Below are positions 8,877 to 48,091 of a stretch of DNA of 64,000 bases, piece after piece. A model generated the notes under the pieces. That model saw only the letters and a list, made by a program, of their open reading frames with translations, did not search any database and was not told the origin of the DNA. Within the stretch, counting starts at the first letter, position 1; every line of letters starts with the position of its first letter. The translations under genes and the position numbers were made by a program. Source of the stretch: a virus; the IMG/VR virus record IMGVR_UViG_3300020469_000014, positions 62,001-126,000 of that record; one strand, 5' to 3'.

Positions 8877-9581
8877 CTATAAAAATATGGCCTGTGTTAT
8901 CCTATCTACGTCAGTAAATTTACCCGTATTCATGATTGGAGATTGTAATATGTCAGCAGGAATGATTATTGCCCTATTAAATTTCATACCAAAAGTAAAC
9001 TCCCTACCCCAAGTAAATTTAGAGTCATAAACATCTTTAATAATATCAAAATGTTTTTTAGTGGCATACATTGCCTTCATATCTTCAACTACTGAAGTCC
9101 TTCCAGCAAAATTCCATAGGTTTGTTCCACCAAAACATTCTTCCTCATGGTTTAAATATATCTCTATCTTAAATTGGAAAGGCGATGGGTTATGTTCATA
9201 CCATAGTTGAAAAGGTATGAGTCGATCTGGTTGATCTGTCATTGTCTTTTCATTTAGATACTCTACAAGAAACCACATGTATGACATATTTTCGTCAATC
9301 GTTGGTCTATCGCATGTTCTGCCCCAATGTTCATCGTCATGACATATCTGTTTGATCACATGTTCTATATTTTTCCTTAGTTCATCTGTTTGATATGCAG
9401 CTCTTTCTATTCCATTAGGGTGATTACTAAATGGAATATCTTTTTTTCTATCCAACTTTAAAGCTAATCTTCTAACTTCCTCTGGATTTTCATAAAAATT
9501 ATCTATGACCATAGCACTCCTACCATCTATGCCTATGTCTGTGATGGCAGTAGCTTCTAAATTTTCACTTAATTCAAACAT
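8877..9581 (-). CDS. DUF6445-like protein with lost iron ligands
   Basis: A 234-residue protein whose framework matches the oxygenase at 863-1630. It has MVIDNFYENPEEVRRLAL near residues 24-41, the core KIEIYLNHEEECFGGTN near 138-153, and MKFNRAIIIPADILQSPIM near 199-217. At the positions of the iron ligands it has H130-N-P instead of HxD, and Q213 instead of the distal His. It is therefore likely to be catalytically dead or to act differently, perhaps as a structural or sugar-binding relative. It overlaps the upstream 62-residue gene by 8 bases. Confidence 0.65.
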   Translation of the reverse strand: MFELSENLEATAITDIGIDGRSAMVIDNFYENPEEVRRLALKLDRKKDIPFSNHPNGIERAAYQTDELRKNIEHVIKQICHDDEHWGRTCDRPTIDENMSYMWFLVEYLNEKTMTDQPDRLIPFQLWYEHNPSPFQFKIEIYLNHEEECFGGTNLWNFAGRTSVVEDMKAMYATKKHFDIIKDVYDSKFTWGREFTFGMKFNRAIIIPADILQSPIMNTGKFTDVDRITQAIFL

Positions 9582-9762
9582 CTTTGTTCTTTTCTTCCAC
9601 TAAATGTTCAACTTCTGAGGCAACCTTACCCATTACCTCTCTTACATCAGTTCCTGATCCAGAGGTATAATAGTAATCTGTTCCTTTCGGAGCATAATGT
9701 CTGGTGTGGAGTGTCCAATGCCACTGTTCAATATTTTTTGAATACCAGAATTGTAATCTCAT
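9574..9762 (-). CDS. Small hypothetical protein (62 aa)
   Basis: It starts with an ATG at 9762 and ends 8 bases inside the next gene. It is aromatic and histidine rich at the N-terminus (LQFWYSKNIEQWHWTLHTRHY) with a charged helical C-terminus. I do not recognise the family. It lies directly downstream of the tmRNA gene and may share its transcript. Confidence 0.6.
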   Translation of the reverse strand: MRLQFWYSKNIEQWHWTLHTRHYAPKGTDYYYTSGSGTDVREVMGKVASEVEHLVEEKNKDV

Positions 9763-9784
9763 GAGTGTTTTAATTTATATAGGA

Positions 9785-10085
9785 GGGGGCAGAGCCCCCA
9801 CAGTCACTTGGTTAACAAGGAGTGACTAATCCCCGATTGCCCCTTAAGCAGCGACGAGTTCGTCAGTGCGGGCAAATTCTCTTGTAAGAATACGAGAGAA
9901 CGCTACGATGTTATTCGCAGCAGTGTCAGATGTTTTTGCATCTATGGTTTGCTCTCCGAGCAGGTTTTCAGTCATGTTCCGTATACCCTGTCGAGACCAT
10001 GGCATCCCCTTGAATGGAGATGAGGGGAATCGAACCCCTGTCCAGAATGTCGATTACACCACCTACATGTCTTTTTGAGTCATAC
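9785..10085 (-). ncRNA. ssrA: Circularly permuted (two-piece type) tmRNA
   Basis: Read on the minus strand, the acceptor half comes first. It has a T arm (AGGGG, loop TTCGATT, CCCCT) and the 3' acceptor strand CATCTCC plus discriminator A at 10022-10015. Only five bases later, at 10009, the coding half begins with GGGGATG, which pairs with CATCTCC over 7 bp (one G-U). The conserved D-loop TCGACAGGG follows, then a small GCTC/GAGC hairpin. A resume codon GCG at 9918-9916 opens a 24-codon tag frame that starts ANNIVAFSR, ends DELVAA and stops with TAA at 9846-9844. Two further hairpins follow: AGTCACT/AGTGACT, then GGGGGC-TCT-GCCCCC near 9785-9800. Cyanobacterial tags also begin AN(N/K)IVxF and end in AA, and marine picocyanobacteria carry permuted ssrA. 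CCA is not encoded. The outer ends are approximate. The predicted role is release of stalled ribosomes with SmpB and tagging for proteolysis. Confidence 0.88.
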
Positions 10086-10092
10086 ATCAGGA

Positions 10093-10680
10093 CTATACAA
10101 TCCATTGTATCCAAGAATATCTGGTTCCTTTTGTTACTGGCATTACTTCATGTGGAAACAAATACAGTGCTGGAAATACTAACACACTTCCCTTCTTTAT
10201 ATTGACAGTGTGTTCCTTCCAAAACCTAAACTCACCTCCTTCAAAATCGTCATTCAACACACCTACCACACTAGTAACAGGTATGCCTCTAAATTGTCCT
10301 TCAAAGAAATCTCGGATATGATCGTAGTGTGGACTAAGATAATCGCCAACATCATACTTATTGAATTTTATGCCTGAGCAAGCTTCCCAAAATGAACCGC
10401 CAGTTTGATTATCCTCAACGTCATAATAATTATATTTTTCGTGGAAGGCATTAAACAACTCATCATTTATATGTGGTTGTATTATATTTACCGCCTCTGG
10501 GGCAGTTACGGTTGATTTCATATTTGATTCTTTATCAATATCAACCTGTTCAAAGTCCTGATACCAAGAAAATTCACCCCATTCACGAGAATCTAAAAGA
10601 GATACTATCTGATCACATTCCTGATCAGATAGCAAATCATACTCAAATATGTGGTCTTTAAGATTCGGATACTTCAACAT
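10093..10680 (-). CDS. 2OG-Fe(II) oxygenase (prolyl-4-hydroxylase-like)
   Basis: A 195-residue dioxygenase. The iron ligands are H118 and D120 (HYDH) with distal H177 in FPHEVMPVTKG, and R187 is placed for 2-oxoglutarate binding. The strand NDDFEGGEFRFW matches the paralogue at 292-873. The tmRNA acceptor region starts within about ten bases of its stop codon, so the gene and the RNA may be cotranscribed. The target is unknown; position among fibre and baseplate genes fits modification of virion or host-surface protein, but this is inference. Confidence 0.85.
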   Translation of the reverse strand: MLKYPNLKDHIFEYDLLSDQECDQIVSLLDSREWGEFSWYQDFEQVDIDKESNMKSTVTAPEAVNIIQPHINDELFNAFHEKYNYYDVEDNQTGGSFWEACSGIKFNKYDVGDYLSPHYDHIRDFFEGQFRGIPVTSVVGVLNDDFEGGEFRFWKEHTVNIKKGSVLVFPALYLFPHEVMPVTKGTRYSWIQWIV

Positions 10681-45302: not shown

Positions 45303-45386
45303 TGGGAGAAGAGGGACTCGAACCCTCACGACATTTCTGCCAACAGATTTTAAGTCTGGTGTGTCTACCGATTCCACCACACTCCC
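45303..45386 (-). tRNA. trnL: tRNA-Leu (UAA)
   Basis: 84 bases, class II with a variable arm. Anticodon loop in CAGACTTAAAATCTG gives UAA. T arm GAGGGTTCGAGTCCCTC. Acceptor stem GGGAGTG pairs with the 3' strand before discriminator A. CCA is not encoded. Confidence 0.93.
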
Positions 45387-45389
45387 GAA

Positions 45390-45463
45390 CGACTCAAGTA
45401 GGACTCGAACCTACGACCGACTGCTTAGAAGGCAGTTGCTCTATCCATCTGAGCTATTGAGTC
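45390..45463 (-). tRNA. trnR: tRNA-Arg (UCU)
   Basis: 74 bases. Acceptor GACTCAA/TTGAGTC. Anticodon stem-loop CTGCCTTCTAAGCAG gives UCU. T loop GGTTCGAGTCC. Reads AGA/AGG codons. Confidence 0.93.
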
Positions 45464-45466
45464 TGG

Positions 45467-45540
45467 AGCCACTTGTCGGACTTGAACCGACGACCTACGC
45501 ATTACAAATGCGTTGCTCTATCCAGCTGAGCTAAAGTGGC
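45467..45540 (-). tRNA. trnT: tRNA-Thr (UGU)
   Basis: 74 bases. Acceptor GCCACTT/AAGTGGC. Anticodon stem-loop CGCATTTGTAATGCG gives UGU. T loop GGTTCAAGTCC. Confidence 0.93.
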
Positions 45541-45543
45541 GAA

Positions 45544-45615
45544 TAGGACTACCGAGAATTGAACTCGGTTCACACCGTTATAAGCAGTGGGCATTAACCA
45601 ATATGCGATAGTCCC
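45544..45615 (-). tRNA. trnI: tRNA-Ile (UAU)
   Basis: 72 bases. Acceptor GGGACTA/TAGTCCT with one G-U pair. Anticodon stem-loop CACTG-CTTATAA-CGGTG gives UAU, which would read AUA directly. Such tRNAs are rare in bacteria, which normally use modified CAU. Confidence 0.85.
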
Positions 45616-45699: not shown

Positions 45700-46755
45700 T
45701 TACAACGCATTACCACGAGGTAATACTTCTTCTGGGAAGATGAAGTTTTCATGTGGTTGATCAGCAGGTGCCAACCAAGCACGGAGTCCTTCATTCAGAA
45801 GAATGTTCTTAGTGTAGAAGGTCTCAAATTCTGGATCCTCCGCTGCACGAATCTCCTGAGATACAAAGTCGTAAGCACGTAGATTAAGAGCGAGTCCAAC
45901 AATACCGATAGAAGCAGTCCAGAGACCCATGACGGGCACGAATAGCATAAAGAAATGCAACCAACGCTTGTTACTAAAAGCAACACCGAAGATCTGTGAC
46001 CAGAAACGGTTCGCAGTAACCATCGAGTAAGTCTCCTCCTCTTGCGTAGGTTCAAAAGCCTTGAAAGTATTTGATTGTTCTCCATCTTCAAACAGCGTGT
46101 TTTCTACAGTGGCACCATGAATGGCACAAAGCAATGCACCACCAAGGATACCTGCAACGCCCATCATGTGGAAGGGGTTCAGCGTCCAGTTGTGGAAACC
46201 CTGTAGGAAGAGTAGGAATCTAAATATCGCAGCAACACCAAACGACGGTGCAAAGAACCAACTGGACTGTCCGAGTGGATAGATGAGGAATACGCTGACA
46301 AAGACAGCGATAGGCCCAGAGAACGCAATAGCATTGTATGGTCTAATTCCTACGAGACGACTGATTTCAAACTGTCTAAGCATGAAACCAATGAGAGCGA
46401 AAGCACCGTGCAGTGCAACAAATGCCCAGAGACCACCGAGTTGACACCAGCGAATGAAATCACCCTGTGCTTCTGGTCCCCATAAAAGTAGAAGACTATG
46501 ACCCATAGCATCAGCAGGAGTAGAGACTGCTGCTGTTAAGAAATTTGCCCCTTCAAGATATGAAGATGCAAGACCGTGTGTATACCAACTGGTAACAAAT
46601 GTTGTTCCAGTCATCCATCCGCCAATTGCCAGATAAGCAGTGGGTAGAAGAAGAAGACCAGACCATCCGATGAATACAAACCGATCTCTTTTTAACCAGT
46701 CATCAAGGATATCAAACCATCCCCTCCGTTGTTGTTGTAATGTAGACGCAACCAT
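45700..46755 (-). CDS. psbD: Photosystem II D2 protein
   Basis: 351 residues, the host length. [24 protein letters not shown] at the start; the central [30 protein letters not shown] carries the conserved His ligands for pheophytin-region chlorophyll and the iron. It ends [11 protein letters not shown]. It maintains photosystem II during infection together with D1. It is separated from psbA by a terminator, so it probably has its own weak promoter in 46756-46800. Confidence 0.97.
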
Positions 46756-46850: not shown

Positions 46851-47939
46851 TTAACCGATGGAAGGTGCAGTAAGAGCAACAGGAGTTGACTCAGCAGCAG
46901 CGAGATCCAAGGGGAAGTTGTGAGCGTTACGCTCGTGCATGACTTCCATACCCAGACCAGCGCGGTTAAGCACGTCTGCCCATGTTGGAATCACTTTACC
47001 ACTTGCGTCTACAACCGACTGGTTGAAGTTGAATCCGTTAAGGTTGAATGCCATAGTTGACACACCCATTGCAGTAAACCAGATGCAAACCACTGGGAAT
47101 GCTGCTAGGAAGAAGTGAAGTGAACGTGAGTTGTTGAAAGATGCGTATTGGAAGATCAAACGACCGAAGTAGCCATGAGCTGCAACGATGTTATATGTTT
47201 CTTCTTCTTGTCCGAACTTGTAACCATAGTTCTGAGACTCTTGCTCAGTTGTTTCTCTGATTAGAGAAGATGTTACGAGTGAACCGTGCATTGCACTGAA
47301 TAATGAACCACCGAAGACACCAGCCACTCCAAGCATATGGAAGGGGTGCATTAGGATATTGTGCTCTGCCTGGAACACGAACATGTAGTTAAAAGTACCT
47401 GAGATACCAAGTGGCATTGCATCAGAGAAAGAACCTTGACCGAAAGGATACACTAAGAATACAGCGAATGCTGCAGACACTGGTGCTGAATAAGCAACAC
47501 AGATCCAAGGACGCATACCTAAACGGTATGAAAGTTCCCACTGACGACCACAGTATGCTGTGATGCCGATTAGGAAATGGAAGACTACAAGTTGGAATGG
47601 ACCACCGTTATACAACCACTCATCGAGTGATGCTGCTTCCCAGATTGGGTAGAAGTGAAGTCCGATAGCATTTGAACTAGGAACAACTGCACCAGAGATG
47701 ATGTTGTTACCGTACATTAAAGAACCTGCTACTGGTTCTCTGATTCCGTCGATGTCTACTGGAGGTGCTGCGATGAAAGCAATGATGAAACATGTTGCTG
47801 CTGCCAACAAGCATGGGATCATCAGTACGCCGAACCAGCCGACATAGATGCGGTTGTCAACTGAGGTTACCCAGCTGCAGAATTCGTCCCATCCTGAGAG
47901 GAGACCACCGCGTTGTTTTGAACGTGAAAGAGTTGTCAT
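46851..47939 (-). CDS. psbA: Photosystem II D1 protein
   Basis: The ATG at 47939 gives 362 residues ([39 protein letters not shown]). [35 protein letters not shown] holds the quinone and iron ligands. The C-terminal [18 protein letters not shown] includes the processing site after LDLA. An earlier in-frame start lies in the leader and is rejected. Full length, no intron or homing endonuclease. Confidence 0.98.
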
Positions 47940-48091
47940 TTGAAAAAGGGTTAGGTAATAGTGCAGGGATACACCGATAAAATATTCCTTCGCCACCCTC
48001 AGGCGGAGGTATAAGAGACGTAATTTAATGACCCATAGGTCTCGGTTAGCGGGTCAGAAAGATGTTGGAATCAACACCCCTACATTTATAT
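47940..48091 (-). promoter_or_regulatory. Structured psbA leader
   Basis: About 150 bases between promoter and ATG without a supported gene. Contains GACCC/GGGTC (about 48030-48056) and a CCTCCGCC/GGTGGCG arm near 47985-48010. Likely to affect psbA mRNA stability or translation. Confidence 0.45.

Follow-up and report, generated by a model that had tools for sequence, protein, structure and literature searches.

A probable phage-encoded permuted tmRNA of cyanobacterial kind with a remodelled tag in a T4-like cyanophage

tmRNA is a bacterial RNA that releases stalled ribosomes, and a two-piece form is found in ocean cyanobacteria. A gene for such an RNA was noticed by an earlier note, made from the sequence alone, in a 64,000-base stretch of viral DNA (hereafter the window), which comprises bases 62001–126000 of a 134,054-base IMG/VR record (IMGVR_UViG_3300020469_000014). 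The locus raises the question of whether a cyanophage carries a working tmRNA, and whether its tag is still that of a host. The tmRNAs of mycobacteriophages (Bxz1, Wildcat) and of Bacillus phage G are of one-piece form. Those of Bxz1, Wildcat and other mycobacteriophages and of phage G are listed in PMC4131195, and the accessible text of a 2025 tmRNA database paper gives 79 phage tmRNAs (PMC11915505). Marine phages with two-piece tmRNAs have been described before: according to the available part of PMC9004378 (2022), tmRNA was counted in 402 phages, and of the 53 unique two-piece forms 50 are marine or aquatic.

ARAGORN called a single permuted tmRNA over the window (Table 1). The Rfam cyano_tmRNA model (RF01851) matched the same locus at 109 bits (gathering threshold 70, E 1.4e-28) over its full length (1–288 of 288), and the tmRNA_permuted model (RF04321) matched bases 9844–10063 at 85.8 bits. 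The earlier note had read the locus as a permuted tmRNA of cyanobacterial type carried by a cyanophage and had proposed ARAGORN or covariance models as the check; both confirmed it. Folded as a single strand, a 306-nt stretch around the gene reached −108 kcal/mol (z −5.07), and none of 100 shuffles was equally low. The gene is no assembly accident, since it is identical over 352 nt in L009 and L012 and differs at five positions in L025. The source is a T4-like cyanophage: 82% of window bases 1–25000 align to S-SSM7 and S-SSM6a with 84% identity, and the window holds two Photo_RC genes (PF00124; ORFs 46851–47996 and 45700–46755). Overall, what this T4-like cyanophage, itself of the S-SSM7 (Lipsvirus) type, encodes here is very probably a functional permuted tmRNA of cyanobacterial kind.

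The gene order is permuted: the T arm and 3' acceptor strand come first, then an intervening sequence, and the 5' acceptor strand follows. The 7-bp acceptor stem, very short loop and TCGACAGGG element reported in the earlier note were all found, with 7/7 pairs and a 5-nt spacer plus the discriminator A. The G3-U70 wobble, which we take to be the alanine identity, was present in 42/42 parsed distinct phage genes and a 7/7-bp stem in 41/42, among the matches listed; both counts were partly forced by the search patterns, and two of the 44 distinct phage genes were unparsed. The stem of L201 reads 4/7 pairs. A short spacer as a phage peculiarity was ruled out, as spacers of 5–6 nt occurred in 63/114 distinct genome-scan genes among the matches listed. 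Complete tRNA genes lie within the acceptor-strand spacer of the phage permuted tmRNAs L200 (1412–1486, Asn), L207 (2411–2483, minus strand, Asn), L208 (13582–13664, Tyr) and L168 (6920–6992, Asn; L168 ends at the locus edge). An intact tRNA-Ala in the spacer is given as unique to one nominally archaeal tmRNA gene in the available text of PMC11915505.

Table 1. Features of the permuted tmRNA locus, in window coordinates.
Feature	Position	Strand	Basis or remark
Permuted tmRNA (ssrA) precursor	9753–10104	−	ARAGORN; Rfam boundaries 9785–10087
T arm AGGGG-TTCGATT-CCCCT	10023–10039	−	Sequence; RF01851 alignment
3' acceptor strand CATCTCC	10016–10022	−	Sequence; 7/7 pairs with 10003–10009
Discriminator A	10015	−	Sequence
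5-nt intervening sequence TTCAA	10010–10014	−	Presumed removal on maturation, from the permuted gene form
5' acceptor strand GGGGATG, G3-U70 wobble	10003–10009	−	Sequence, pairing
TCGACAGGG element of tRNA-like domain	9986–9994	−	Sequence
Hairpin AGAU-GCAAAAAC-AUCU, resume codon in loop ("helix m" position)	9928–9943	−	Pairing, covariation
Tag frame, 31 codons + TAA: AKTSDTAANNIVAFSRILTREFARTDELVAA	9844–9939	−	ARAGORN, alignment, A at −4
Phage-specific 7-codon N-terminal extension AKTSDTA	9919–9939	−	Perhaps derived by tandem duplication of the tag start, with later divergence
Conserved tag core ANNIVAFSR, codons 8–16	9892–9918	−	pN/pS 0.05, 23 distinct sequences
Middle hairpin from inserted tag segment	9877–9900	−	Fold (identical in L009); weak covariation
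Hairpin directly before stop codon, (((.(((((....))))).)))	9848–9869	−	Fold (identical in L009); moderate covariation
Terminal GGGGGC-TCT-GCCCCC stem, where the RF01851 match ends	9785–9799	−	Rfam, sequence

To compare phage and host tags, as the earlier note had proposed for hosts and other cyanophages, we assembled a viral set that combined the window and named records with the genes from two viral-contig scans. It contained at least 53 cyanobacterial-kind genes with an ARAGORN tag (45 contigs, seven named records and the window), representing at least 44 distinct precursors, at least 37 distinct tag frames and at least 28 distinct tags; L007 and L016 fit the search pattern without an ARAGORN gene. 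The scan of genome contigs gave at least 120 loci; among the matches listed, 119 belonged to Cyanobacteriota and one (L052) to Pseudomonadota. L130 was without a tag, leaving 118 cyanobacterial genes for comparison among those matches. Host tags had 16 residues in 113/118 genes among the matches listed, and in the remaining five ARAGORN started two codons earlier, giving 18 residues in three distinct readings. Phage tags ranged from 14 to 32 residues among the matches listed.

A seven-codon N-terminal extension was found in 37/44 distinct phage genes and in 0/118 host genes, among the matches listed. It had the form A[KN][TS]...A or ANNIDTA and preceded ANNIVAFSR or a near variant. Where present, the extension was always seven codons long and in frame among the matches listed, and this frame-keeping is partly selected for because ARAGORN calls only genes with a tag frame. 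Seven distinct phage genes were without it (L022, L027, L029, L192, L200, L215 and S-CRM01); the phage origin of L022, L029 and L192 was backed by phage-family genes on the same contigs, and that of L215 more weakly, by psbA only. L207, L213 and L242 read ANNIDTA-ANNIV, a near-repeat of the tag start, which suggests that the extension arose by tandem duplication. These three may preserve the ancestral duplication, or their core may later have been copied onto the extension. Between AKTSDTA and ANNIDTA, one base was apparently lost and one gained (a −1/+1 frameshift pair).

The tmRNA gene is sporadic among cyanophages. In a collection of 50,697 phage records, blastn found at least 16 cyanophage-type records and two of S-CRM01, making at least 18 from seven phages, compared to at least 498 records matching the same phage's gp5, both numbers being lower bounds; in the other 8 of the 24 matched records the alignment covered at most 14% of the query. 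A further 211 Staphylococcus records, obtained by BLAST with L022, were discarded, as the match was due to an overlap with tRNA-Asp. The closest named homologues, in S-SSM7 and S-SSM6a, had about 95% identity over 352 nt. When the tag was excluded from the tree, the 111 distinct rows of picocyanobacteria grouped as one clade (100/100) and 44/44 phage rows lay outside it, among the matches listed. This tree is approximate: it has a single distant row as root, long branches, a bootstrap that did not settle and numerous open forks, and the number of captures cannot be read from it. Since all phage rows stand apart from this clade, a recent transfer from a present-day host, as the capture proposed in the earlier note might be read, was not supported.

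The tag core is under purifying selection. Across 23 distinct extended sequences among the matches listed (two ANNIDTA sequences were left out), the differences in codons 8–16 numbered 60, 22 and 643 at the three codon positions; as change was almost confined to the third position, the core is kept as a peptide. The extension (codons 1–7) had a pN/pS of 0.78 with no clear amino-acid constraint, and its first codons also serve a hairpin. This hairpin consists of four bases 5' of the resume codon, an 8-nt loop opening with the resume codon, and four partner bases. All four pairs were present in 22/23 distinct extended phage segments, ANNIDTA forms left out, and in 0/39 host segments, among the matches listed; in L020 the register was broken. 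Two of the four pairs were doubly changed (G-C to U-A and A-U to C-G) in nine sequences, which are related, so that the changes may represent few events. The percent paired, the doubly changed cells and the covariation score exceeded 500/500 shuffles and all slid controls, whereas neither the count of doubly changed pairs nor that of pair types surpassed the 500 shuffles. Compensatory changes are now available for the resume-codon hairpin; for helix m, its counterpart in E. coli, the 2005 comparative model had only energy calculations, as given in the available part of PMC1168896.

Synonymous recoding around the resume codon showed no contrast between phages and hosts (mean z −1.69 for extended phage and −2.37 for host sequences). 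In the 3' half of the tag, the native sequence folded better than its synonymous recodings (P 0.05) in 25/37 phage compared to 0/41 host frames, with mean z of −2.26 and −0.49, respectively, among the matches listed. Covariation of the middle hairpin was weak (four distinct sequences; score reached by 44/500 shuffles). For the hairpin before the stop codon, analyzed in 13 sequences of which several did not fit, shuffles were as good in 3, 7 and 8 of 500 cases by three measures and in 41 and 261 by two others. The folding of the 3' half and these hairpins indicate that RNA structure explains the inserted segment at least in part, and the remodelling of the tag is partly due to it. The earlier note had read the long tag with its inserted middle segment as a possible altered degradation signal: the length and the insert were substantiated, and the insert is not simply a degron. 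Only 8/28 distinct phage tags, the VAA-ending tag of the window among them, ended in AA, compared to 15/15 distinct host tags among the matches listed (Fisher P 3e-6, uncorrected for kinship), and the remodelling was possibly also directed toward a changed degradation signal.

The length of the tag depends on where translation resumes. The frame reads AKTSDTA-ANNIVAFSR-ILTREFARTDELVAA with the stop TAA at 9846–9844, and the context CCAUAGAU-GCA ... UAA offers an Ala codon, an A at −4, an open frame and a stop. The resume codon is most likely GCA 9939, which gives 31 codons, compared to 16 (or 18) residues in hosts. The unusual length seen in the earlier note therefore holds, but its 24 codons are too few, since they were counted from codon 8 (9918), the second Ala codon in frame. 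If translation did resume at GCG 9918, the 21-nt insert would be an untranslated hairpin spacer; the strong protein-level constraint beginning at codon 8 with none clear in codons 1–7, a core that starts exactly like the host tag, and the insert's membership of the covarying hairpin would all fit. This alternative is nevertheless unlikely. The A at −4, whose equivalent in E. coli tmRNA is A86 (PMC1168896, available part), was found at the first Ala codon in 38/38 distinct phage and 65/65 distinct host sequences, compared to 1/37 extended phage genes at the second, among the matches listed. GCA 9939 lies 11 nt after AGAGC, close to the 12 nt of hosts (by eye from the alignment), while GCG 9918 lies 32 nt after it. 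The insert is also 21 nt and open in all extended genes listed despite the apparent −1/+1 frameshift pair, and an untranslated spacer would not need an open frame. A start at GCA 9939 is further favoured by the preceding tetramer AUAG, which is a published preference before the resume codon (PMC4236655, available part). AUAG as a general resume-codon mark was ruled out, as it occurred in 12/38 distinct phage sequences among the matches listed; the A at −4 is general.

The gene would be transcribed on the minus strand, probably in one transcript with the 2OG-Fe(II) oxygenase gene ending at 10093, and host tRNA enzymes would excise the 5-nt spacer, leaving two RNA pieces joined by pairing. Host AlaRS would charge the RNA with alanine, and with host SmpB, EF-Tu and ribosomes translation would resume at GCA 9939, adding Ala and the 31-residue tag. 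Use of host SmpB is most likely, since no SmpB was found in the window's 134-kb record or in seven other viral records, which may be fragments (10/14 controls positive); four of the eight carry a cyanobacterial-kind tmRNA (the window's, L012, L026 and L034). The likely benefit would be that ribosomes stay free at a time when infection brings cleavage and turnover of transcripts. The same lack of SmpB in the records searched would suit a competitor RNA, which would block trans-translation in the host chiefly by engaging its SmpB, AlaRS or stalled ribosomes. There is a precedent in phage DS6A, whose RNA is little more than the tRNA-like domain (PMC4131195); a phage RNA with this domain only, or similar, inhibits endogenous tmRNA according to the available parts of PMC4131195 and PMC11915505. 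A pure competitor could dispense with the tag, yet the tag core is strongly conserved, and we consider this role very unlikely. Patchy distribution would also be expected of a functionless host gene, passively captured or decaying, but the intact tRNA-like domain, the selected tag core, the phage-specific covarying structure and the position of the phage genes apart from the host clade make this highly improbable. What a working phage tmRNA would do beyond rescue can be proposed only tentatively: cyanophages may have repurposed trans-translation, so that a re-engineered tag, with its duplicated start, hairpin-coding inserts and drifting C terminus, replaces the host tag in infection and gives unfinished proteins a slower or different fate than degradation by host ClpXP, with ribosomes still recovered.

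Compared to known systems, the gene shares its order (3' piece of the tRNA-like domain first), the sequence of this domain, the short spacer and an ANNIV.FSR-like tag core with the picocyanobacterial permuted ssrA (RF01851, RF04321), which is without the extension and the resume-codon hairpin. Methylophage Melnitz and other marine phages likewise carry a permuted ssrA (PMC9004378); the tmRNA of Melnitz is alphaproteobacterial in the phylogeny of that paper's available part, whereas the window gene, with its long tag, fits the cyanobacterial model. Homologous genes occur in S-SSM7, S-SSM6a, Sf-FS3, S-CAM1, S-CAM3, S-CRM01 and the single-cell virus AG-345-P14, with differing 3' parts of the tag. 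None of these seven regions has an annotated tmRNA feature, and AG-345-P14 is without any annotation. In S-SSM7, the hypothetical protein SSSM7_025 (YP_004324078.1; L002:12043–12261) overlies the tmRNA in the tag frame, extended upstream; this annotation is probably spurious, because the same frame in the window has a stop at codon 3. In the available text of the S-SSM7 paper (PMC3037559) the word tmRNA occurs once, in a reference title. We found no description of the tag differences between cyanophages and hosts, the remodelled tag or the covarying resume-codon hairpin in the available text of open-licence papers, and the phage tag strings had no match in such papers. PMC5587285 was set aside as a precedent, since in its available part it concerns a phage SspB without ssrA. 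The phage set separates what is kept (the tRNA-like domain and the ANNIVAFSR core) from what changes (tag start, length and last residues), and offers a testable system for relating a phage tag to what becomes of rescued proteins in one of the ocean's major primary producers.

In the window, the gene lies between the 2OG-Fe(II) oxygenase gene (10093–10680) and a minor-coat-type gene (8877–9581; Pfam DUF6445 slightly below cut-off), and a fibre gene with an S74 domain is close by. Of the late expression with fibre genes proposed in the earlier note, the proximity to a fibre gene holds for some phages: the context is alike in S-SSM7 and Sf-FS3, where the gene is near a fibre gene, while in S-CAM1, S-CAM3 and S-CRM01 it is near tRNA, psbA and nrd genes. 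No late promoter (TATAAATA) was found near the gene; the window has two, both distant, compared to 4.67 expected. Between 9500 and 11200, no sigma-70-like promoter was found on the minus strand and one on the plus strand, with 4.7 expected. In many relatives the tmRNA adjoins tRNA genes, unlike in the window, whose cluster of four tRNAs (Leu(taa), Arg(tct), Thr(tgt) and Ile(tat); 45303–45615, minus strand) is far from it.

On L008, L011, L013, L161, L182, L185, L217, L258 and other viral contigs, permuted tmRNAs encode tags of non-cyanobacterial type (GNDYELQMAA, ANDETFALAA and GNDYQMKMAA, for example); they look like separate captures in other phages. A PhotoRC-II RNA motif (47974–48067, minus strand, 72 bits) lies at the upstream end of the Photo_RC gene 46851–47996; it overlaps the first 23 bases of the called ORF, so the real start of this gene is probably further in.
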